The notes under the pieces are model-generated. The model did not search any database. It saw nothing but the letters and a program-made list of their open reading frames with translations, and was not told where the DNA came from. Positions 25,223 through 39,006 of a stretch of DNA of 64,000 nucleotides are shown piece by piece. How positions within the stretch are numbered: the stretch's first letter is position 1; the number at the start of each line of letters is the position of its first letter. The stretch spans positions 1-64,000 of the forward strand of contig JAJPJB010000092.1 of assembly GCA_021324465.1 (NCBI GenBank), in the 5' to 3' direction. A program made the position numbers and the translations under genes. This stretch comes from Hyphomicrobiaceae bacterium. GTDB lineage: Bacteria > Pseudomonadota > Alphaproteobacteria > Rhizobiales > Xanthobacteraceae.

Positions 25223-26278
25223 TTACGCCGATATAGCGTGATTCGATTCTCCCAGCATCTCCCGCACCATCGGCATGACTTTGCGGCCGAACAGCTCGAT
25301 GCAGCGCATGATCTTGTCGTGCGAGAGCGTACCGGCCGAGTATTTGATATCGAAGCGCGATAATCCGAGCGCCCGCACGGTGGCGCAGATGCGCCGCGCC
25401 ACGGTTTCCGGCGAGCCGACATAGAGGGAGCCATGATCGGCCTCGCGGTCGAATTCGGCACGCGTCATTAGCGGCCAGCCGCGTTCGGCGCCGATGCGGT
25501 CGCGCATCCGCTTATAGTCGGGCCACAATTCTTCGCGCGCGATCTCGTCGCTTGCGGCGACATAGCCGTGCGAGTGCACGCCGATTGCTTGCGCCGGCTT
25601 GCCGATCTGCGCGTAAGCGCGATGGTAGAGGTCGACATAGGGTGTAAAGCGCCGCGGATCGCCGCCGATGATGGCAAGCATCAACGGCAGATCGTAGCGC
25701 ACCGCGCGCACCACCGATTCCGGGCTGCCGCCGACACCGATCCAGGTGCGAAGGGTCCCGGTTTCGATCGGCGGAAAGACACGCTGGTTTTTGAGCGGGG
25801 CGCGCGTTGTGCCTTGCCAGGTGACGCTTTCATTGCGCAGCAGCGCGGCAAACAGATCGAGTTTTTCCTCGAATAATTTCTCGTAATCCGACAATTCGTA
25901 GCCGAACAAGGGAAAGGATTCGATGAAGGAACCGCGGCCGAGCGTCACCTCGGCGCGTCCATTGGAGGCGGCGTTGAGTGTGGAGAAACGCTGAAACACG
26001 CGCACCGGATCGTCCGAAGACAACACCGTGACGGCGGAGCCCAGCCAGATACGCTTGGTGCGCGCGGCAATTGCCGCTAGCACGACATCGGGCGTGGATA
26101 TGGCGAAGTCGGCGCGATGGTGCTCGCCAAGCCCGAAGGCATCGACGCCGACCGCGTCAGCGAGCACGCCTTCCTCGATCACATGGCGGATGACTTGCGC
26201 CTGGCTGAGAGCCTGCCCATCCGGCCCGGCCTGAATATCGCCGAACGTATCGAGGCCAAGTTCAATCTGCTGGGTCAT
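25223..26278 (-). CDS. LLM-class (luciferase-like) flavin-dependent oxidoreductase
   Basis: GLGEHHRADFAISTPDVVLAAIAARTKRIWLGSAVTVLSSDDPVRV...GRGSF. Confidence 0.9.
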   Translation of the reverse strand: MTQQIELGLDTFGDIQAGPDGQALSQAQVIRHVIEEGVLADAVGVDAFGLGEHHRADFAISTPDVVLAAIAARTKRIWLGSAVTVLSSDDPVRVFQRFSTLNAASNGRAEVTLGRGSFIESFPLFGYELSDYEKLFEEKLDLFAALLRNESVTWQGTTRAPLKNQRVFPPIETGTLRTWIGVGGSPESVVRAVRYDLPLMLAIIGGDPRRFTPYVDLYHRAYAQIGKPAQAIGVHSHGYVAASDEIAREELWPDYKRMRDRIGAERGWPLMTRAEFDREADHGSLYVGSPETVARRICATVRALGLSRFDIKYSAGTLSHDKIMRCIELFGRKVMPMVREMLGESNHAISA

Positions 26279-26367: not shown

Positions 26368-27171
26368 TCAGATCAATTGCTGCTGCAATTCAACGGCCAG
26401 ATCCTGCAGCCTGGCAAAGAATCGGCCATGCATCGCCTTAAGCGGCGCGCGTTCGCTGTGAACCCCGATATTCAGTGCGGCAACCGTTCGGCCATCTGAT
26501 TTCTTCAGTGGAATGGCGATCGAGCGAAAGCCAAGCTCGACCTCCTGGTCGGCGAGCGCATAGCCCGATTTGCGCACATTCAGAATGATCCTTCGCAATT
26601 CGGCTTTGTCCGTGACCGTGAATTTGGTGACTTTTCTCGGGCGCAGGCGCGCGAGAAAGCTTTCCAAGGCGCGGTCGTCCAACGCCGCCAGCAGGATACG
26701 GCCCAGCGAGGTTGCAAAGGCCGGCAGCCGAAAGCCGATCTGGTCGCTCACCGGAATGATGCGTTTGGGCGAAGCATGCGCAATCATCGTGATGTCTTCG
26801 CCATCGAGGACGGCTGCGGAGCAGGATTCACCGACGTCCTCGCTCAAACGCTCGAGCGCCGGCTGCACAATGGCGCTCACCGCATTCGATTGCAGATAGG
26901 AACGCGCCAGCGCGAGAACGCGGGGTGTCAGGCGGAACAGTCGATCGTTCATCTCGGCATAGCCGAGCGCGACCAGCGTATGCAAAGTACGGCGGACGGA
27001 AGCGCGCGGCAGATCGACCAGCTTGGCGATATCGCTGAGCGTGAGCTGTCGGCGGTCCCCGTTGAAGCTTTCGATCACGCGCAGGCCGCGGGCGAGCGCT
27101 TCGAGGAATTCCGATCCCGAGCGCTCGGCCAGGGCGTATTCGGCGGATGATCGCTTCAAGGGCGGCATCAT
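26368..27171 (-). CDS. IclR-family transcriptional regulator (PcaR/PcaU-like)
   Basis: SEFLEALARGLRVIESFNGDRRQLTLSDIAKLVDLPRASVRRTLHTLVALGY plus IclR effector domain; start at 27171 preferred to 27255. Confidence 0.92.
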   Translation of the reverse strand: MMPPLKRSSAEYALAERSGSEFLEALARGLRVIESFNGDRRQLTLSDIAKLVDLPRASVRRTLHTLVALGYAEMNDRLFRLTPRVLALARSYLQSNAVSAIVQPALERLSEDVGESCSAAVLDGEDITMIAHASPKRIIPVSDQIGFRLPAFATSLGRILLAALDDRALESFLARLRPRKVTKFTVTDKAELRRIILNVRKSGYALADQEVELGFRSIAIPLKKSDGRTVAALNIGVHSERAPLKAMHGRFFARLQDLAVELQQQLI

Positions 27172-27224
27172 GAAGTCCCGATCTGCGCGCTTGCCAGGGC
27201 GCGGTTTGTTTGCTCTAATTTCAA

Positions 27225-27249
27225 CGAACATATGTTCGGTCAGCGAACA
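27225..27249. promoter_or_regulatory. candidate IclR operator: palindrome CGAACATATGTTCG plus third half-site CGAACA
   Basis: Perfect 14-bp palindrome 27225-27238 and CGAACA at 27244-27249, between the divergent iclR and Rieske oxygenase genes. Confidence 0.65.
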
Positions 27250-27300
27250 AAGCAAGCTTTTGCTGGTTCCGGCCGTTCGGCCGTCGGGGAGGAGTGAGCC

Positions 27301-28614
27301 ATGCTCAGCGCGGAACAGAACGATCGCATCACCCGCATCACACCCGACAGGCCCGCCGGCAAATTATTGCGCCGTTACTGGCAGCCCGCCGCCTTGGTCA
27401 ATGAACTCGACAATCGGCGCCCGATCAAACCGGTACGGCTGATGGGCGAGGACCTTGTGCTCTATCGCGACGAGAAGGGGCGCTACGGGTTGCTCGGCCG
27501 GGCCTGCCCGCATCGCGGCACCGATCTTGCCTACGGGCGTCTCGAGGACGGCGGCTTGCGCTGCGCCTTCCATGGCTGGCTGTTCGACGTCGAAGGCAAA
27601 TGCCTAGAGACGCCGGCGGAGCCGGAGGGCAGCAAGCTCTGCCGCAATATCCGGCACAAGGCCTATCCCGTGGTTGAGCGCAGTGGCATTTTGTTCGCCT
27701 ATATGGGCACTGGCGCATTGCCGGAATTCCCGCATTTCGATTGTTTTGTCGCGCCGAGCTCGCACACTTTCGCCTTCAAGGGCTTGATCGATTGCAACTG
27801 GCTGCAGTCGCTCGAGGTTGGCATCGATCCGGCGCACACCTCGTTCCTGCATCGTTTTTTCCACGACGAAGATCCGAATCAGGGTTACGGCAAGCTGTTC
27901 CGCGACACCTCGATCGATTCGGAAATGCCGATGACCAGGATCATGCGCGAATTTCCGCGCCCGCGCATTGAGGTCGAGCCGACCGATTTCGGCTTGCGCA
28001 TTCTCACGCTGCGCGAAATCAGCGCACAGAACACCCATGTGCGCGTGACCAACCTGATGTTCCCGAATGCTTTTGTCATTCCGATGAGCCGGGAGATGAC
28101 GATCACGCAGTGGCACGTGCCGATCGACGACTACAAACATTATTGGTACGCGATCTTCACCAGTTTTGGCGCGCCGGTCGACAAAGATGAGATGCGCCGC
28201 CAGCGCCTGGAGCTCTACGAGTTGCCGGACTACCTTCCGCGCAAGAACAAGAGCAACAATTACGGCTATGATCCGCACGAACAGAATCGCGAGACCTATA
28301 CCGGCATGGGCGCCGACATCAATGTCCACGACCAATGGGCCTGTGAATCCATGGGCGCGATCGCCGACCGCACGCGGGAGCATCTCGGCCAGTCCGACAA
28401 GGCGATCGCCGCCTATCGGCGGCTCCTGCGCCACGCGATTGATGCGGTGGAGAAGGGTGACGCGCCGCCGATGATTTTTGATGCAGCTTCGGCAAAAATG
28501 ATCACGGGGCCCGCCGCCATCGACGGCATCGGGCCGACCGATGATTGGCAAGGCTATTGGCAGAGAACCGATGCCAACAAGCGCAGCGCCGCGAGTTGGG
28601 CTGTTCCGCACTAA
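27301..28614 (+). CDS. Rieske [2Fe-2S] aromatic ring-hydroxylating oxygenase, alpha subunit (phthalate/vanillate type)
   Basis: CPHRGTDLAYGRLEDGGLRCAFHGW Rieske motif; DPAHTSFLHRFF mononuclear iron site. Confidence 0.93.
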   Translation: MLSAEQNDRITRITPDRPAGKLLRRYWQPAALVNELDNRRPIKPVRLMGEDLVLYRDEKGRYGLLGRACPHRGTDLAYGRLEDGGLRCAFHGWLFDVEGKCLETPAEPEGSKLCRNIRHKAYPVVERSGILFAYMGTGALPEFPHFDCFVAPSSHTFAFKGLIDCNWLQSLEVGIDPAHTSFLHRFFHDEDPNQGYGKLFRDTSIDSEMPMTRIMREFPRPRIEVEPTDFGLRILTLREISAQNTHVRVTNLMFPNAFVIPMSREMTITQWHVPIDDYKHYWYAIFTSFGAPVDKDEMRRQRLELYELPDYLPRKNKSNNYGYDPHEQNRETYTGMGADINVHDQWACESMGAIADRTREHLGQSDKAIAAYRRLLRHAIDAVEKGDAPPMIFDAASAKMITGPAAIDGIGPTDDWQGYWQRTDANKRSAASWAVPH

Positions 28615-28653
28615 ACGCGTGGCCGTGGCCCGGGCCGTGATTTGGATATCGCC

Positions 28654-30153
28654 ATGTCTTCGCATAAACGCCGGTCGCTCGCCTTGAATTTCGTCGAGCG
28701 GCATGGGCTGTGGAGCGAGGAGCAGGCGCGCGCGGCGGCCGGCGTCGACAAAGCGATTGCGCAGAAGAGCCTGGAACTGGTCCGTTTCTCTTTCCCGGAC
28801 CAGCACGGCATTCTGCGCGGCAAGACCCTGGTGGCGAAGGAAGCTTCACGCGCGTTGCGCAGTGGCGTGACCATGACGAGCACCCTGTTCGCCAAAGACA
28901 CCTCGCATCGCACCGTCTTTCCGGTGTTTGAGGCCGGGGCCGGCATGGGTCTGCCGGAAATGGGCGGTGCCGGCAATTTTATCATGGTCGCCGATCCGCA
29001 AACCTTTCGGGTGCTGCCCTGGGCAGAAAATTGCGGCTGGGTGTTGTGCGACAGCTATTTCCGGAACGGCAAGAAGGTGCCGATCGCGACACGGCAGCTC
29101 TATCGCGAGGCGCTGTCAAAACTCGCCAGAGCCGGCTTCGATTATATGGCTGGCCTTGAAGTTGAATTTCATCTCTTCAAGATCGAAGATCATCAACTCG
29201 CACCTGAAACGCTCACCTGGCCGGCCGCGCCGCCACGCGTGAGCCATACCACGCACGGCCATCAATACCTCACCGAGGCGCGTTACGACCAGGTCGCGCC
29301 CATTCTGGATGCGCTGCGAAAGAGCGTCGAAGCGCTTGGCCTGCCGCTGCAATCGCTCGAGGTCGAGTTCGGGCCGAGCCAGTACGAATTCACTTTTGCG
29401 CCGCAGATCGGCCTGGCGGCTGCCGATGCCATGGTGCTGTTCCGCAGCGCGCTCAAGCAAGCGGCACGGCGGCACGGCTATTTGGCGAGCTTCATGTGCC
29501 GGCCGCGTCTACCCAATACGCTCGCCAGCGGCTGGCATCTGCACCAATCGCTGATCGATACGGCTTCCAAGGCAAATGCCTTTATCTCTCCGAGCCAGAA
29601 GGACGCCTTGTCGCCGCTTGGCCGCAATTTTCTCGGCGGCCTTCTGGCCAATGCCTGTGCCGCCACGGCATTTACGACACCGACGCTCAACGGCTACAAG
29701 CGCTATCGCGGCATCAACACCATGGCGCCGGTACAGGCCGTTTGGGCCAAAGACAATCGCGGCGCGATGATCCGCGTCATGGGCGAGCCCGGCGATCCGG
29801 CAACCCATTTTGAGAACCGCAGCGGCGAGCCGCTCGCCAATCCGTATCTCTACATGGCGTCGCAGATTTATGCCGGCCTGGACGGGATCGCTCGCGCTCT
29901 CGATCCCGGCCCGTGCGCGGGCGCGCCGTATCAAAAATGCGCAGCCGCCGCGCTGCCCGCGGCGCTCGATGATGCCCTTGCCGCGCTGCGGACAAGCAAC
30001 TGCTTCAGGAGCGGCTTTGGCGACGGCTTTGTCGACTACTACCTCCGCCTGAAAGAGGCAGAGATCGCGCGATGTCGCAAAGCGATGCCTGACACAACCG
30101 AGCAGGACACCGTCAGCGAATGGGAGCACCACGAATATTTTGACATGCCGTGA
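28654..30153 (+). CDS. glutamine synthetase-like ligase (candidate gamma-glutamyl-amide synthetase)
   Basis: GS catalytic-domain features (GLEVEFHLFKIEDHQ; SGWHLHQSLID; NRSGEPLANPYLYMASQIYAGLDGI). Confidence 0.88.
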   Translation: MSSHKRRSLALNFVERHGLWSEEQARAAAGVDKAIAQKSLELVRFSFPDQHGILRGKTLVAKEASRALRSGVTMTSTLFAKDTSHRTVFPVFEAGAGMGLPEMGGAGNFIMVADPQTFRVLPWAENCGWVLCDSYFRNGKKVPIATRQLYREALSKLARAGFDYMAGLEVEFHLFKIEDHQLAPETLTWPAAPPRVSHTTHGHQYLTEARYDQVAPILDALRKSVEALGLPLQSLEVEFGPSQYEFTFAPQIGLAAADAMVLFRSALKQAARRHGYLASFMCRPRLPNTLASGWHLHQSLIDTASKANAFISPSQKDALSPLGRNFLGGLLANACAATAFTTPTLNGYKRYRGINTMAPVQAVWAKDNRGAMIRVMGEPGDPATHFENRSGEPLANPYLYMASQIYAGLDGIARALDPGPCAGAPYQKCAAAALPAALDDALAALRTSNCFRSGFGDGFVDYYLRLKEAEIARCRKAMPDTTEQDTVSEWEHHEYFDMP

Positions 30154-30236
30154 CGCGCCGGCCGCGGGCCACGCCCTGGTTTGGCTCATGTGACCAGCCC
30201 GGGGCCATGCACTATTTCTCAGATCTGCGCCGCTTG

Positions 30237-30265
30237 CCTGCATTATAATGCAGGTCCATAATGCA
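30237..30265. promoter_or_regulatory. candidate operator: CCTGCATTATAATGCAGG palindrome plus downstream ATAATGCA half-site (contains TGCA-N6-TGCA)
   Basis: Perfect 18-bp palindrome 30237-30254; ATAATGCA repeated at 30245-30252 and 30258-30265; ~110 bp upstream of the boxA-like gene. Confidence 0.6.
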
Positions 30266-30373
30266 ATCGGACGCGGAACTGCCAACGACTGCGACCGGGG
30301 AAAATTCAGGCCTTATGCTGGTGAAGCGAGCGCCGCGAGCGCACCAACTCCCGGCAAGACCGTGTGAGTCGAA

Positions 30374-31594
30374 ATGACCGAGCTTGTGCGACAGCATCTG
30401 ATCGATCCCGCGGTTTGTATCCGCTGCAACACCTGCGAGGTGACTTGTCCGAGCGCAGCGGTGACGCACGATGACAACAATTACGTCGTCGATGCCGACA
30501 AATGCAATTTCTGCATGGAATGCGTGTCACCCTGTCCAACCGGCTCGATCAATCACTTTGTCTCGGTCGCAACGCCATTCTCCTTGGAAGATCAGTTTTT
30601 GTGGAGCGAGCTTCCGGATACGCTTCCTGCGGCGGAGGAGGCCAACATCCGCGGCGGGGTCGAGGCGATCGACCAGGAAGTCGCCGCACTGCTCGATGAG
30701 GCCCATCAAGGTGCGCGCGGCCGCATGCGGGCACCGGCGTCGGCAAGCACGCCGCGCGTCAATCTGTTCGGCCGCAATAATCCAGCTGAAGCGACGGTGA
30801 CCGGAAATTTCCGGCTCACCAACACCGACGCCAGTGCCGATGTCCGCCATATCATTCTTGATTTCGGCACGACGGCATTCCCGGTGCTGGAGGGCCAGAG
30901 CATCGGCATCGTCGTTCCCGGCACGGATTCAGCCGGACGTTCGCATCGCATGCGGCTCTATTCCGTGGCAAGTCCGCGTGACGGTGAGCGGCCGAATACC
31001 AACAATCTTGCGCTGACAGTGAAGCGGGTGCTGGAAGAGCGAGCCGACGGGACTGTCTTTCGCGGTGTCGCTTCGAACTATGTTTGCGATCTAAAGCAAG
31101 GCGCGAAGGTTCAGGTCGTCGGCCCATTCGGATCGACGTTTCTGATGCCGGATGATCCGCAGGCCGATATTGTGATGATTTGCACCGGCACCGGCTCCGC
31201 ACCATTCCGCGGTTTTACCGAGCGGCGCCGGCGCGCAATGCCCAACGCAAAGGGCAAGCTTTTTCTGTTTTTTGGCGCACGCAACCCGCAGGAGCTTCCG
31301 TACTTCGGTCCCTTGCAGAAGGTGCCGAAGACCTTGCTCGACCAGGAGCTGGTATTTTCGCGCTTGCCCGACAAGCCAAAGGAATATGTTCAGGATCGCA
31401 TGCGCGCACGCGCAGCCGACCTGGCGTCGCTGCTGCGACGCGAGACCACGCATATCTATGTCTGCGGGCTACGTGGCATGGAAGCAGGCGTCGAAGCCAG
31501 CTTCGCCGACATTTGCCGTCAGCATTCGCTGTCGTGGGAGGAGTGCCGCGAGCGCTTGCGCGATGCCGGCCGCTTCCATGTCGAGACGTACTAG
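30374..31594 (+). CDS. boxA: BoxA-like NADPH-dependent reductase (2x[4Fe-4S] ferredoxin fused to FNR-type flavoreductase)
   Basis: [17 protein letters not shown]...[19 protein letters not shown] motifs [26 protein letters not shown]. Confidence 0.88.
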
Positions 31595-31616
31595 CGCCGT
31601 TAGCCCAAGCACGACC

Positions 31617-31850
31617 CTATTCGTCGAGGAAGGCCTGGACCTGATCGATCAATTACATGCGGTTCTTTTCCAGCGCCACCGTATGGGTGCCGTCGTCAAT
31701 CACAACATAACGCTTTGAGGGCATGTATTGATCAGTTTCGCAAAGACGTCCTGCACCATGTAGAGCGGAGCATTTCGGCGAGGTCTTTGCAGGACCCATT
31801 GGGGCGCCTATCACCGGCGGTAAGTGCTTCGTGCCGGCGACACCGGGCAA
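31617..31850 (-). pseudogene. alpha/beta-hydrolase C-terminal remnant with in-frame stop and frameshift
   Basis: Minus strand reads KRYVVIDDGTHTVALEKNRM*LIDQVQAFLDE* in one frame and APLYMVQDVFAKLINTCPQ in the adjacent frame. Confidence 0.6.
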
Positions 31851-32146
31851 ATGATACGGCAGCATCGCCCAGCGCGCCGTCTCGGTCGCTGTCGCGGTGG
31901 CAGCGCGAGACTGAGGACGTCTTTCCTCGTCCGGATATATATTTCCGCTCGCCACGTGGGCGATAACCTTGATGCCGCAGATTCCACTAAGGAAATGCGG
32001 ATGTATTGATTGAGGTCGAGCATGTAATATAGTGCATATGGCGCGACACGGATATGCGGCGTAAGGGAATGGTAGCTCGTGGTCCCGCGCGATCGCCGCA
32101 AACAAGAACGTCAACGTGTCCACGGGGAAGCAGAGGGGATAGTGTC

Positions 32147-33352
32147 ATGACAAACAGGTCTCACGCGTTATCTCGAATGCCGCAGATTATGGGTGCCGTA
32201 TCGGTCGCTGCGCTCGCGCTGGCTGGCGGACCGGCATTGGCGCAAAACAAGACGGTCAAGATCGGTTTCATCTCGACCTTTACCGGCCCGCCGGCCGCCA
32301 TCGGCAACGACATGAAGAACTCCTTCGAGCTCGGCCTCGACCATCATGGCCGCAAGCTCGGCGGACTTCCCGTCGAGGTGATTTACGAAGACGATCAGAC
32401 CAAGCCGGAAGTCGGCGTGCAGAAGACGCAAAAGCTGATTGAATCCGATCACGTCGACTTTGTTGTCGGCTATATCTGGTCGAACGTACTGCTCGCGTCG
32501 CTCAAGCCACTGGTCGATTCCAAGACCATGACGGTGGTCACCAATGCCGGCGCTTCGCAGCTCGCCGGCGAATTATGCTCGCCCTATGTGTTCTCGACAT
32601 CCTGGAACAACGACCAGACACCGGCTGCGGTCGGACTCTACATGAACCAGAAGGGCGTCAAGACTGCCTTCCTGATCGGACCGAATTACGCCGCCGGCAA
32701 GGATATGCTGGCGGGTGTGCAGTCGACCTTCAAAGGCCAGATCGTCGGCCAGGAATTGACGCGCTGGCCCGATCAGCTGGATTTCTCGGCTGAATTGTCG
32801 AAGGCGCGCGAGACCAAGCCGGATGCGATTTTCGCCTTCTATCCGGGCGGCGCCGGCGTGCAATTCGTTACGCAGTACGCGCAGTCGGGGCTTAAAGGGC
32901 AGATCCCGCTCTATACCGCCTTTACCGTCGACGATCTTTCGCTGCCGCGGCTAAAAGATCTCGCAATCGGCATTCCGGGCGCGCAGGAATGGGTGGCCGA
33001 CTTGCCCAACGACGCCAACAAAAAATTCGTCGCCGATTACAAGGCAAAATATCACGCCTCGCCGTCGTTCTACGGGGCACAGACCTATGATGCAGTCGGC
33101 CTGATCGACAGCGCTGTCACGGCGGTCAAGGGCAACCTCGCCGACAAAGAAGGCATGCGCAAGGAAATGGAAAAGGCCGACTTCAAATCCGTGCGCGGTG
33201 CGTTCAAATACGGCAACAACCATATCCCGATCCAGAATTTCTATCTGCAGGATGCGGTGAAGAATGCCGATGGCAGCTATTCGCTGCATACGGTGGCCAC
33301 CATCGTCAAAGACGATCAGGACAAATTCCACGACAAGTGTCCGATGAAATAG
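32147..33352 (+). CDS. branched-chain amino acid-type ABC transporter substrate-binding protein (LivK-like)
   Basis: Signal peptide; VKIGFISTFTGPPAAIGNDMKNSFELGLDHHGRKLGGLPVEVIYEDDQTKPEVGVQ; start 32147 preferred to 32054. Confidence 0.93.
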   Translation: MTNRSHALSRMPQIMGAVSVAALALAGGPALAQNKTVKIGFISTFTGPPAAIGNDMKNSFELGLDHHGRKLGGLPVEVIYEDDQTKPEVGVQKTQKLIESDHVDFVVGYIWSNVLLASLKPLVDSKTMTVVTNAGASQLAGELCSPYVFSTSWNNDQTPAAVGLYMNQKGVKTAFLIGPNYAAGKDMLAGVQSTFKGQIVGQELTRWPDQLDFSAELSKARETKPDAIFAFYPGGAGVQFVTQYAQSGLKGQIPLYTAFTVDDLSLPRLKDLAIGIPGAQEWVADLPNDANKKFVADYKAKYHASPSFYGAQTYDAVGLIDSAVTAVKGNLADKEGMRKEMEKADFKSVRGAFKYGNNHIPIQNFYLQDAVKNADGSYSLHTVATIVKDDQDKFHDKCPMK

Positions 33353-33412
33353 ACCTGCGGCGTCGCGTCCGGGTCATCATGCCTCGACGGGCGCCGCGCG
33401 CCTATTTAGGAT

Positions 33413-33438
33413 GACGCAGCAGCAACATCTGCTGCGTC
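33413..33438 (+). promoter_or_regulatory. perfect stem-loop between SBP and permease genes (GACGCAGCAG-CAACAT-CTGCTGCGTC)
   Basis: 10-bp perfect arms, 6-nt loop, no following U-tract. Confidence 0.75.
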
Positions 33439-33486
33439 GCCGCCGCCGATCTTGCACCCGGCCGGGACCGCCGGAGCTTGAGTTTT

Positions 33487-34404
33487 ATGCTCTATCTCAT
33501 CGAGCAATTTCTCAACGGCATTCAGCTTGGCATGCTGCTGTTTCTGCTTGCCGCCGGATTGACCTTGATCTTCGGCATCATGGATCTGGTCAATCTGGCG
33601 CACGGTTCGCTGTATATGATTGGCGCCTATTTCGCCGCGACTTTCGCGGACTGGACCGATAGCTTCGTGCTGGGGACGGTGTTGGCGCTGATTGCGACGC
33701 TGATTGTCGGCATGGCGCTGGAAGTGATCGCGATACGGCGTCTTTATGGCCGCGATCATCTCCATCACGTGCTCGGCACGTTCGGTCTGTTGCTTTTCTT
33801 CAATGAGCTGGTGCGGTTGATCTGGGGACCTGCGGGCATGACCTTGTCGCTGCCGAGCGAGATGCTCACCGCCGTGCAAGTTCTCCCCGGCCTCTACTAT
33901 CCCGTGTATCGCCTCGTGATCATCGCGGTGACGCTGGCCGTGGCGGCGCTACTCTATCTGCTGGTGATGCGCACGCGATTGGGCATGCTGATCCGCGCTG
34001 GTGCTTCCAATCGCGAAATGGTCGGCGCCCTCGGGATCAACATCAAGCTTCTCTATACGCTGGTTTTCGGTCTTGGCGCGGCGCTTGCAGGCTTCGCCGG
34101 CTTGATGCAAGCCCCGATCCTCACCGTGCAGATCGGCATGGGCGAGAACATTCTGATTGCGGCTTTCGTCGTGGTCACCATCGGCGGCATCGGTTCGATC
34201 CGCGGCGCTTTTGTCGCTGCGCTGCTTGTCGGCCTTGTCGATACGATCGGCCGCGCCTTCGTTCCCGACCTGCTGCATCGCTATCTGAGCGAGGCCGCAG
34301 CGTCCGGCCTTGGCCGCAGCCTGTCGTCGATGCTGGTCTATGTAGTGATGGCGCTGATTCTGGTCGTGCGTCCTGAAGGCTTGTTCCCGGCAGCCTCACG
34401 ATGA
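33487..34404 (+). CDS. livH: branched-chain-type ABC permease (LivH-like)
   Basis: FLNGIQLGMLLFLLAAGLTLIFGIMDLVNLAHGSLYMIGAY. Confidence 0.94.
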   Translation: MLYLIEQFLNGIQLGMLLFLLAAGLTLIFGIMDLVNLAHGSLYMIGAYFAATFADWTDSFVLGTVLALIATLIVGMALEVIAIRRLYGRDHLHHVLGTFGLLLFFNELVRLIWGPAGMTLSLPSEMLTAVQVLPGLYYPVYRLVIIAVTLAVAALLYLLVMRTRLGMLIRAGASNREMVGALGINIKLLYTLVFGLGAALAGFAGLMQAPILTVQIGMGENILIAAFVVVTIGGIGSIRGAFVAALLVGLVDTIGRAFVPDLLHRYLSEAAASGLGRSLSSMLVYVVMALILVVRPEGLFPAASR

Positions 34405-35384
34405 GTCAGCTGTCTGCGAGCCCACGCGGCATTGTATCGGCACCAGGCTGGCTGACGCCACGCCTGACCGTCATTGCCGCGCTTCTACTCATATTTGGAT
34501 TGGTTCCGGTCTATGCCGCGGTCAGCGGCAACAGCTTTGCGCTGGCGCTGTTCAATCGCATTTTGATTCTGGCGCTGGCGACGCTGAGCTTGAATCTGAT
34601 CATGGGCTTCGGCGGCATGGTGAGCTTCGGTCATGCCGTCTATCTCGGCATCGGCGGCTATGCCGTGGGCATTCTGGCCAAGGAAGGCATAGGGTCAGGC
34701 TTTATCCAATGGCCGGTCGCGATCGCGGCTTCCGCCTTCTACGCACTGATCGTCGGCGCACTGTCGCTGCGCACGCGCGGCGTCTATTTCATCATGATTA
34801 CGCTCGCTTTTGCGCAGATGATCTATTACGTCGCAATCGGGCTCGACCGCTATGGCGGCGATGATGGCTTGACGATCTATCGCCGCAGTCAGTTCGGCAG
34901 TCTCGATCTCAATAACAAGACCCTGTTCTACTATCTGTGCTTCGCAATTCTCTTGGCAGGCATCTATGCCCTGTGGCGGGTCATCAATTCGCGCTTTGGT
35001 CTGGTGATCCAGGGCGCCCGTTCCAATGAGCGGCGCATGCGCGCCATCGGTTTTCCGACTTTCCGATACAAGCTGGTCTGCTTCGTCATTGCTGGAGCGC
35101 TGTGCGGACTGGCGGGCGCCCTGCTCGCCAATCACACCAATTACATCAGCCCGGCAATGATGAGCTGGCCTCGCTCGGGCGATCTCATCGTCATGGCGGT
35201 GCTCGGCGGCATGCGCGCGGTGTTCGGCCCATTGATCGGGGCGACAGTCTTCCTGTTGCTGGAAGAATGGCTGTCGCGCGTCACCGACTATCCAAACTTG
35301 ATTGTGGGACCGCTCCTGCTTGTGGTGGCGCTTTATGTCCATGGCGGCATCGATGGGTTGTTTGGGAGAGCGCGCCGTGGCTGA
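34401..35384 (+). CDS. livM: branched-chain-type ABC permease (LivM-like)
   Basis: LNLIMGFGGMVSFGHAVYLGIGGYAVGIL. Confidence 0.94.
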   Translation: MSQLSASPRGIVSAPGWLTPRLTVIAALLLIFGLVPVYAAVSGNSFALALFNRILILALATLSLNLIMGFGGMVSFGHAVYLGIGGYAVGILAKEGIGSGFIQWPVAIAASAFYALIVGALSLRTRGVYFIMITLAFAQMIYYVAIGLDRYGGDDGLTIYRRSQFGSLDLNNKTLFYYLCFAILLAGIYALWRVINSRFGLVIQGARSNERRMRAIGFPTFRYKLVCFVIAGALCGLAGALLANHTNYISPAMMSWPRSGDLIVMAVLGGMRAVFGPLIGATVFLLLEEWLSRVTDYPNLIVGPLLLVVALYVHGGIDGLFGRARRG

Positions 35385-36135
35385 AGCGCTGCTTGCGATC
35401 GACAATCTGACCAAGCGTTTCGGCGGCGTCGTGGCGTCGGATCGGATTTCACTTTCCTTGACGCGCGGGGAGCTACACGCGATCATTGGTCCTAACGGCG
35501 CAGGCAAGACGACGCTGATTGGTCAATTGACCGGCGAGATCGCTCCCGATACCGGCAGCATCCGCTTCGAAGGGCGCGATATTACCGCGCTGGCTGCGCA
35601 TCGGCGCAGCGCCATCGGGCTCGCGCGCTCCTTTCAGATTACCTCGCTGTTTGTTGATTTTACCGCGCTCGACAATGTGGCGCTTGCGGTGCAGGCGCAT
35701 GCCGGCCATTCGTTCCGATTCTGGCGCAATGCCCGCGCAGACAGCGCGTTGCGTGAGCCGGCGCGTGCGGCTCTTGCCGGCGTCGGTCTTGCCGAACGGG
35801 CCACTGTGCTGGTCGCCGATCTCAGCCATGGCGAGCGCCGGCAGCTCGAAATCGCCATGGCGCTGGCGACGCGGCCGCGCATGCTGCTACTGGACGAACC
35901 GATGGCCGGTATGGGGCCAGAGGAGTCGGCGCGGCTTGTCGAAACACTGCGGCGGCTCAAGGGCAGCCTCACCATACTTTTGATCGAGCACGATATGGAC
36001 GCGGTATTCGCGCTGGCGGACTGCATTAGCGTTCTGGTTTATGGCCGTATCGTTGCATCGGGTGAGCCATCGGCGATCCGCGCTGATCCGGTTGTGCGGC
36101 AGGCTTATCTCGGTGAAGGCGAGGGGGCCGCATAG
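35377..36135 (+). CDS. livG: branched-chain-type ABC ATPase (LivG-like)
   Basis: IIGPNGAGKTTLIGQLTG; LSHGERRQLEIAMAL; GTG start at 35377 overlapping livM end. Confidence 0.94.
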   Translation: MAEALLAIDNLTKRFGGVVASDRISLSLTRGELHAIIGPNGAGKTTLIGQLTGEIAPDTGSIRFEGRDITALAAHRRSAIGLARSFQITSLFVDFTALDNVALAVQAHAGHSFRFWRNARADSALREPARAALAGVGLAERATVLVADLSHGERRQLEIAMALATRPRMLLLDEPMAGMGPEESARLVETLRRLKGSLTILLIEHDMDAVFALADCISVLVYGRIVASGEPSAIRADPVVRQAYLGEGEGAA

Positions 36136-36146
36136 GCTATACAGTC

Positions 36147-36863
36147 ATGGCTGATGCTGCCTTGCTCGAACTTGTGAATATCGAGACTAGCTACGGCCTA
36201 AGCCGCGTCTTGTTCGGCGTCTCGCTCACCCTTGCCAAGGGCGAAGTGGTTTCGCTTTTGGGCCGCAACGGCATGGGCAAGACAACGACGGTCCGCTCGA
36301 TCATGGGGCTGACGCCTGCCGGCGCGGGTTCGATCCGGTTTGAGGGTCGGGAAATCCGCGCGCTTGCGGCTTACCGGGTCGCCAAGCTCGGTATTGGTCT
36401 CGTGCCAGAAGGACGTCAGGTTTTTCCAAACCTGACCACGCGTGAAAACCTTGTCGCGACGGCGGCCAATCGCAGCCGCGCCGCGGATCCGTGGACGCTT
36501 GAAAAGGTCTGCGCGCTGTTTCCACGACTGGCCGAGCGCGCTGACAGCATGGCGAACTTGCTGTCCGGCGGCGAGCAGCAGATGCTGGCGATCGGCCGCG
36601 CCTTGATGACCAATCCGCGCCTGTTGATCTTGGACGAAGCGACCGAAGGTTTGGCGCCGACGATCCGCGACGAGATCTGGCGTTGCCTGCAGAGCCTGCG
36701 CGCGAGGGGACAATCCATTCTGGTGATCGACAAGAACATCGAGGCGCTGATGCGCATAGCCGACCGGCACTATATCATCGAGCGCGGTCGGGTCGTATGG
36801 AGCGGCACCTCGCCGCAACTGGCGGCGGCGCCGGAAATCCAGCACCGCTATCTCGGTGTTTGA
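36147..36863 (+). CDS. livF: branched-chain-type ABC ATPase (LivF-like)
   Basis: LLGRNGMGKTTTVRSIMGL; LSGGEQQMLAIGRALMTNPRLLILDEATEGLAP. Confidence 0.95.
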   Translation: MADAALLELVNIETSYGLSRVLFGVSLTLAKGEVVSLLGRNGMGKTTTVRSIMGLTPAGAGSIRFEGREIRALAAYRVAKLGIGLVPEGRQVFPNLTTRENLVATAANRSRAADPWTLEKVCALFPRLAERADSMANLLSGGEQQMLAIGRALMTNPRLLILDEATEGLAPTIRDEIWRCLQSLRARGQSILVIDKNIEALMRIADRHYIIERGRVVWSGTSPQLAAAPEIQHRYLGV

Positions 36864-37177: not shown

Positions 37178-38155
37178 TCAACTCTCGGCAGCCGCAAGCG
37201 TGTGCACCGGCCGTTCGCCGAATTCACAGAAATAGTCGTGTGCAAAACGATGAACGTCCGCGAATCCACATGTTGCGGCTACTTCAGCCACCGTGGTCGG
37301 GGCCTGAGATGAACGAAGCAATTCGCGCGCACGGTGGAGGCGCAGCCGATTTGCAAATTGCCGCGGCGTATATCCGCGCAGTCTCTTGAACGCGCGAAAG
37401 AGTGAAAATGCGCTTACGCCGGTCACTTGCGCAAGATCTTCGACTGTCAGCGGCGCCCGCCAATTCGCTTCGATATGGTCTTCGGCGAGGCGGACCTTCG
37501 ATAGCGCAACTTCCGGTATTGGCCGCTGAAACAAGTGGCTGTAATTGTGTTGATTGGCTTGAAGCGACATCACCATGAGCGTCTGTTCGAATTCGGCTAG
37601 CAGAATCGGCGGGAGCGGCGAGGCCGACTTGCTGATCTTGTCGACAACAAACAAAACGTGGTCGCGCAGCACCCTGGTCAAGGGCTGGGCGTCACTGCGA
37701 ATCGGATGAAACTGCAAAGCGCAACGGACCGTAGCGCCGGTCATGGCGGCAAGTTTGCAGGCCAATACGTCCACATCCATCAACACGACCAGGTGCTCGT
37801 AGCTCGCATCGACTCGGGTGGAAAAGCTCATCCCCGGCGATATTGCCACCCCCTGGTGTTGGTCAAGCGGATTGGCCGTACCATTGACCGTCGCTTCGCC
37901 CGCCCCGCGCAGCGGAAAACTTTGCATCAGAAAGACGCTCGCCGGATAAGCCATGTTCAATGCGACGCCGTATTTGGTGTAGCCGAAAGCGAGGCTTTGG
38001 CTCCGATAGAGATTGAGTCTCGCGTCGATGGCTGTGGCGGCGCTCTCGAGCCGCACTTTCGGCTCGGCATAGACGCGGGCCAGCGCCGCACACATCTCAT
38101 CGACGCTGCGCGCATGAACGAGCGGAAAGCGATCGAGCAGTGGGGCGGTCGGCAC
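37178..38155 (-). CDS. AraC-family transcriptional regulator
   Basis: Two C-terminal HTHs (LTVEDLAQVTGVSAFSLFRAFKRLRGYTPRQFANRLRLHRARELL...VAEVAATCGFADVHRFAHDYFCEFG). Confidence 0.92.
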   Translation of the reverse strand: MPTAPLLDRFPLVHARSVDEMCAALARVYAEPKVRLESAATAIDARLNLYRSQSLAFGYTKYGVALNMAYPASVFLMQSFPLRGAGEATVNGTANPLDQHQGVAISPGMSFSTRVDASYEHLVVLMDVDVLACKLAAMTGATVRCALQFHPIRSDAQPLTRVLRDHVLFVVDKISKSASPLPPILLAEFEQTLMVMSLQANQHNYSHLFQRPIPEVALSKVRLAEDHIEANWRAPLTVEDLAQVTGVSAFSLFRAFKRLRGYTPRQFANRLRLHRARELLRSSQAPTTVAEVAATCGFADVHRFAHDYFCEFGERPVHTLAAAES

Positions 38156-39006
38156 TAACGGATGCTCCCGCGTTGCGAGCGCACTCGCATCTGAAATGCA
38201 AGCGGGGAATAGCCGCGGTATTTTTTGAATGCGCCGTAAAGGCGCAAACTGCTGGTGCCGGTAACCTCGGCTAGTTCCTCCAGCGGGATCGCGCGCTCGG
38301 CATTCGCCTCGATATATTCCTCAGCGTGTCGCACTTCGCGCGGCGCAGCGTCAGCCTCTTCTTGCTCCAACAAGTGGCTGTAATTGTGCCGGTGAGCATA
38401 GAGGAATAGTGTCATCAACAACTGCTCGGCTTGCGCAATCCACAAATCCGAAAAAGGCGGAGTGGCTGCGCTGAGCGCGTGGGCCAGAAGCGGTATGTAT
38501 TCGTGCAGCATCCGCGCTGCGGGCCCGCCTACATCTTGCCCCGGGTCGATACGCAACGGTTCGCCGATCACGGCCCCGGTCATCGCCGCAAGCTTGTCGG
38601 TCAAGACCCGTGCATTGATGCGTAGAACGAGATGCTCGTAATCAGCGCTGTAATTGATCCGATGGGGTGTATCGGGGGCAATGACCATGCCGGTCCCAAT
38701 ACTCAGAGTCGTGGATCTGCCCTCCAAAATGGCATCGGCGGTGCCGCGGATCGGGAACAGCTGCGAGAAAAAACCGGAAGCAGGGAAGGCAAAGCCTAGC
38801 GGCGCGCCGAATGTGGCGTAGGCAAGCTCGACATTCTGCAGCCGGCAATTGTTGAATGTAGCCTCGATTCTTCTGACCCCCCGCGCCGCCGTCAGGTCGG
38901 GGATCAGATCAGGCTTGGCATAGACCCGCGCAACCGCATCACGCACCTCCTCGACATTGCGCGAGCGAATGACCGGAAAATTGTCAAGAGGCTTGGCTGA
39001 AGTCAC
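38155..39006 (-). CDS. AraC-family regulator paralog, apparently lacking the second HTH
   Basis: First HTH present (IPLEELAEVTGTSSLRLYGAFKKYRGYSPLAFQMRVRSQ) then GSIR stop; 1-nt overlap with downstream full-length paralog. Confidence 0.85.
   Translation of the reverse strand: MTSAKPLDNFPVIRSRNVEEVRDAVARVYAKPDLIPDLTAARGVRRIEATFNNCRLQNVELAYATFGAPLGFAFPASGFFSQLFPIRGTADAILEGRSTTLSIGTGMVIAPDTPHRINYSADYEHLVLRINARVLTDKLAAMTGAVIGEPLRIDPGQDVGGPAARMLHEYIPLLAHALSAATPPFSDLWIAQAEQLLMTLFLYAHRHNYSHLLEQEEADAAPREVRHAEEYIEANAERAIPLEELAEVTGTSSLRLYGAFKKYRGYSPLAFQMRVRSQRGSIR

Follow-up and report, generated by a model that had tools for sequence, protein, structure and literature searches.

The window analysed here is a stretch of 64,000 nucleotides from a Hyphomicrobiaceae bacterium (GCA_021324465.1, contig JAJPJB010000092.1, which is contig C67 of an assembly of 4.57 Mb in 107 contigs). 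Three plus-strand open reading frames (ORFs), intact and consecutive when the ORFs of the window were read, encode a Rieske oxygenase alpha subunit, a glutamine synthetase (GS)-like ligase and the reductase BoxA, and the subject of this text is how boxA came to lie beside the Rieske-GS pair and which oxygenase it would serve. The Rieske protein (27301..28614, +) is of the LigXa_C/phthalate-dioxygenase type and SadA-like, with the Pfam domains Rieske and LigXa_C both above cut-off. The GS-like protein (28642..30153, +) is a GoaS/SadB-like gamma-glutamyl-amide synthetase by annotation and matched Pfam Gln-synt_C with 259 bits, and BoxA (30374..31594, +; TIGR03224) is a fusion of two [4Fe-4S] ferredoxin motifs with an FNR-type reductase. 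Divergent from the Rieske gene is an IclR-family regulator of the PcaR/PcaU/PobR subfamily (26368..27255, −; TIGR02431, 288.1 bits against a cut-off of 284.75), and on the other side lies a LivKHMGF-type importer (32054..36863, +; Pfam Peripla_BP_6, BPD_transp_2 twice and ABC_tran twice). An earlier note on this DNA had named the three genes, the divergent regulator and the full importer, and the Pfam and NCBIfam matches confirmed them all.

BoxR and BzdR recognise TGCA repeats that are mostly separated by 6 bases (PMC6449761; PMC6678401), and the published BoxR consensus is ATGCACTATAGTGCAT (PMC6449761). A TGCA-N6-TGCA palindrome of the BoxR type was present 5′ of boxA, between the GS gene and boxA, and this candidate operator, TGCATTATAATGCA (30239..30252), overlaps a sigma-70-like promoter match, TTGCCT-17-CATAAT (30234..30262, +), which agreed with the consensus in 9/12 positions and is weak by itself. 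A scan of the 4.57 Mb genome, allowing at most one mismatch to TGCAYTATARTGCA, gave four sites in total: the one at boxA, with 0 mismatches, one 5′ of boxR and two 5′ of boxC. The number of BoxR-type sites expected in the window by shuffling was 0. Of 28 box loci, 22 carried a site of this type 5′ of a box gene, and the 33 Rieske-GS loci (577 kb) contained a single one, L184:2891 (G042:C1:455890), which the overlapping locus L254 shows to lie 46 bp 5′ of boxC. Because a perfect operator lies 5′ of boxA and the other three sites lie 5′ of boxR or boxC, boxA is most likely a member of the benzoyl-CoA (box) regulon, and its product would reduce the BoxB encoded on another contig. The predicted BoxR of this genome has the HTH and shikimate kinase domains.

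BoxA passed TIGR03224 at full length (residues 5-406) with 585 bits against a cut-off of 459 and carries the cluster, FAD and NAD(P) motifs; judged by profile and motifs, it is a canonical benzoyl-CoA epoxidase reductase. The window boxA was the sole boxA above the cut-off in the genome. A profile search of the genome located boxB on contig C101 (44311-45732, 921 bits) with boxC adjoining it, and the absence of boxB and boxC reported earlier is therefore true only locally and not genome-wide. Like the BoxA of boxRCBA clusters, the window BoxA has two [4Fe-4S] motifs, an FNR domain and a candidate BoxR operator upstream; unlike them, its gene lies away from boxB and boxC, with an operator of its own, in a string of Rieske, GS and Liv genes. 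The usual adjacency to boxB was thus not found, boxA being on C67 and boxB on C101.

With a threshold of E 1e-100, BoxA was detected in 26 of the 121 relatives and, within the family, in 73 of 392 genomes. When 44 BoxA loci of the relatives were read with their flanks, boxB was beside boxA in 42 and the Rieske-GS pair in none (0/44). The 80 loci of an earlier scan mostly carried boxC-boxB-boxA, with the Rieske gene adjacent in 0/80, and at locus L022 a distant GS homologue (31%) was located about 2 kb downstream. Among the loci read, boxA is next to the pair in this genome only, and no Rieske-GS-BoxA combination was found among the results read of a literature search. The earlier note had joined the three genes into one module; the pair proved to be conserved, BoxA stood beside it in no other locus examined, and a Rieske-GS-BoxA module was ruled out by this lack of co-conservation.

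The Rieske-GS pair was followed through a sample of 121 genomes of relatives. A strong Rieske match occurred in 38, with the GS gene as its same-strand neighbour in 33 of these; the five non-adjacent cases comprise three at contig ends and two, from one genus, with separate loci. The pair was adjacent in 25 of 28 class-level genomes; it is spread across the Alphaproteobacteria and is also carried by plasmids of Burkholderiales. Plasmid-borne relatives have a fuller cluster: genes for a 2Fe-2S ferredoxin and an FAD reductase come after the pair in Polaromonas JS666, Cupriavidus pinatubonensis and Caballeronia insecticola, and lie divergent from it in Methylobacterium nodulans and Nitratireductor. 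Polaromonas also has a Liv importer and a GATase downstream of the pair cluster. The redox partners of the pair in several relatives are hence a [2Fe-2S] ferredoxin and an FAD reductase, and never BoxA. The same pair is present in five congeners (G007, G008, G011, G013 and G014) whose genomes gave no BoxA match; the pair therefore does not require BoxA. IclR genes are found near the pair in several relatives too, and in G060 and G029 (L171, L174) its neighbours include genes for a 4-hydroxybenzoate 3-monooxygenase-like protein and for a PcaD-like hydrolase.

These comparisons bear on two readings in which BoxA donates electrons to the Rieske oxygenase. According to the first, BoxA was recruited in place of the ferredoxin and FAD reductase; boxA is co-directional with the pair, with the GS gene on one side and livK on the other, the locus has no further redox partner gene, and the ferredoxin and ferredoxin reductase of relatives resemble the BoxA fusion in role. 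With a perfect BoxR operator 5′ of boxA, the pair kept by five congeners that have no BoxA match, and boxA beside the pair in this one genome among the loci examined, recruitment is highly improbable. In the second reading, BoxA made from two transcripts serves the Rieske oxygenase as well as BoxB, which would agree with an own operator combined with a co-directional placement and with the tendency of Rieske-GS and box genes to share genomes. It is quite unlikely, as the transcript through both is hypothetical and the partner in relatives is the [2Fe-2S] ferredoxin system.

The origin of boxA at this position could be traced by comparison with G010, a genome of the same genus. The G010 sequence matches the window in gene order as far as 30172, immediately after the stop codon of the GS gene, and collinearity resumes at 32212, in livK; the gap between the matched blocks is approximately 47 bp in G010 and approximately 2 kb in the window. 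G010 represents the site without boxA, and the break in collinearity delimits an inserted block of about 2 kb with boxA inside (30173..32211). Also in this block is a decayed gene remnant (31597..32150, −), possibly the C-terminal part of an alpha/beta hydrolase, with a broken frame ending in MPSKRYVVIDDGTHTVALEKNRM, a stop, LIDQVQAFLDE and another stop; the remnant had no Pfam match and was named a hydrolase by eye. The sequence flanking boxA in donor-like loci gave no indication of where the insert came from, as no similarity to the flank-gap was found outside G010.

In the BoxA tree, the window BoxA grouped with the box-cluster BoxA of the genera g23, g32, g27 and g15 (97% by the Shimodaira-Hasegawa-like approximate likelihood ratio test, SH-aLRT), and the other rows of its clade all came from boxB-linked loci. 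In the BoxB tree, the BoxB of this genome was found in its own genus clade (97%). An approximately unbiased (AU) test rejected a tree in which the window BoxA was forced to group with the other family clade (p 5.4e-10); the BoxA and BoxB trees are quick ones, and the tested grouping was picked after the identities were seen. Since the BoxA tree conflicts with the BoxB tree of the same genome, boxA was probably acquired horizontally. Box loci of the genus with readable flanks contained boxR, a hydrolase, boxC and boxB and lacked boxA, and together with the AU test this ruled out that boxA is a displaced native copy. The earlier note had assigned BoxA to the Rieske oxygenase; a BoxA that nests among canonical box-cluster BoxA, is preceded by a perfect BoxR operator and has boxB and boxC elsewhere in its genome speaks against that assignment. 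The gene would thus be a horizontal gain that entered the stretch separating the GS gene from livK. Under a BoxR-controlled promoter it would be induced together with the box genes, if BoxR binds as predicted, and BoxA would pass electrons from NADPH via FAD and its two [4Fe-4S] clusters to BoxB.

The Rieske protein displays the motifs CPH-x17-CxxH at residue 69 and D-x2-H-x4-H at residue 176, and its closest solved structures are phthalate dioxygenase 7fjl and kin, an alpha-only enzyme. The best solved-structure match of the GS-like protein was NpaA1 (E 2e-127), the 1-naphthylamine glutamylase (PMC11335346). The residues at the aromatic-lined amine tunnel of NpaA1, a feature of glutamyl organic amide synthetases (GoaS), are matched in part and differ in part: F86 of NpaA1 is kept as F96, while W235 is replaced by F243, F75 by K85, M81 by T91 and V201 by Y209, the last as in AtdA1. 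The AtdA1-A5 and NpaA1-A5 systems share with the window a GS-like glutamylase and a Rieske oxygenase, but their Rieske component has both an alpha and a beta subunit, and they include a GAT-like hydrolase and a reductase of their own; no Rieske beta subunit or GAT-like gene was recognised among the ORFs read at 23-40 kb of the window. With NpaA1, a glutamylase of aromatic amines, as the nearest solved structure to the GS-like protein, it is a sound inference that an aromatic compound with an amino group is gamma-glutamylated, as the earlier note had suggested, and the pair probably breaks down an aromatic amine.

The best match of the pair with a likely function was the pair on pSA3 of the sulfanilate degrader Novosphingobium resinovorum SA1, where it is accompanied by ferredoxin, reductase and maleylacetate reductase genes; the window Rieske protein is 66% identical to the pSA3 Rieske protein, and the GS-like protein 53% to its neighbour. 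On account of this match the pair looks to be of the sadAB kind, a likely membership which is set by the SA1 pair and not by the SadA and SadB sequences. The reaction that marks a sad-type enzyme turns 4-aminobenzenesulfonate into 4-sulfocatechol. The sadABCD genes of Hydrogenophaga sp. PBC encode the 4-aminobenzenesulfonate 3,4-dioxygenase (PMC5632844, PMC3704786), and the sad operon comprises a Rieske oxygenase, a GS-like protein, a ferredoxin and SadD (PMC5632844). Like sadABCD and its likely pSA3 counterpart, the window pairs a GS-like gene with the gene of an alpha-only Rieske oxygenase; unlike sadABCD, the window locus is without a ferredoxin (SadC) or reductase (SadD) gene and has boxA inserted. 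The GS-like enzyme would attach glutamate to an aromatic amine at its amino group, after which the Rieske oxygenase would dihydroxylate the resulting gamma-glutamyl amide and give a catechol-type product. A ring-carboxylated or sulfonated aniline, for example 4-aminobenzoate, is the probable substrate. A naturally occurring analogue has been suggested as the native substrate of the sad enzyme (PMC5632844).

The pair and BoxB tended to occur together: BoxB was present in 33 of the 38 relatives with the Rieske gene against 58 of 121 overall, and in other families of the order in 9/9 with the pair against 14/48 overall, the latter figures assuming that G073-G120 represent one genome per family. 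No signal of this co-occurrence was seen within the genus, and a shared lifestyle as aromatic degraders may explain it. In G042 (L184) and G107 (L186), which belong to different families, the pair lies within a few kb of a box cluster, and in G107 a gene for a benzoate-CoA ligase stands divergently next to the Rieske gene. A different substrate could be read from such data, with the GS-like enzyme glutamylating a benzylic amine, the Rieske oxygenase hydroxylating the benzylic carbon, and the resulting benzaldehyde passing via benzoate into the box pathway; such a reading deals with what the pair acts on and is compatible with boxA serving BoxB. The 9/9 against 14/48 and the gene neighbourhoods in G042 and G107 favour it, but the closest likely-functional relatives are arylamine systems (sad, NpaA1) and the co-occurrence may be one of lifestyle, without signal within the genus, which leaves the benzylic amine very unlikely. 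A broader version, in which the sad-type pair is tied to the box pathway in the order, by making benzoate or by sharing redox partners, and boxA serves both oxygenases, is unlikely.

Among the BoxB-bearing relatives, 33 of 58 had no recognisable BoxA, and boxA was beside boxCB in 0 of the 20 loci read (L237-L256). A box cluster without boxA is also on record in Paraburkholderia xenovorans (PMC10803450).

Taken together, the window quite probably harbours two separate things side by side, a sad-type pair and a horizontally acquired, BoxR-controlled boxA serving BoxB. Several observations weigh against this. BoxB without a recognisable BoxA is found in 14 congeners, and BoxB here may accordingly not need BoxA. 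The co-directional placement of boxA with the pair makes read-through possible. Neither in the window nor at same-genus loci was a dedicated ferredoxin or reductase gene found next to the pair, a search that did not extend to the remainder of this genome. The SA1 pair, finally, was taken as the sulfanilate enzyme from its context.

Further genes surround this locus. LivK and LivH show 77% and 80% identity, respectively, to the Liv pair that lies upstream of the box cluster at locus L252 of G029, and the position of that pair hints at uptake of aromatic acids. Beyond the importer are two tandem AraC-type genes with AraC_binding_2 domains on the minus strand (37178-39006), the second of which (38155-39006) showed no HTH domain in Pfam. 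An LLM-class monooxygenase (25223-26278, −; TIGR03858 above cut-off) was found in the same place only in G010, among the loci read.

The arrangement is unusual, with parts of known kinds: a sad-like pair and a boxA with a box operator. The nearness of the genes would here be the product of an insertion, and the control site would show the pathway to which boxA belongs, correcting a tempting misreading of the gene order. With more than half of the BoxB-bearing relatives lacking BoxA, and this genome having apparently regained boxA under a BoxR site, the group may offer a natural test of the need for BoxA. The conserved Rieske-GS pair, in turn, points to a natural arylamine substrate.

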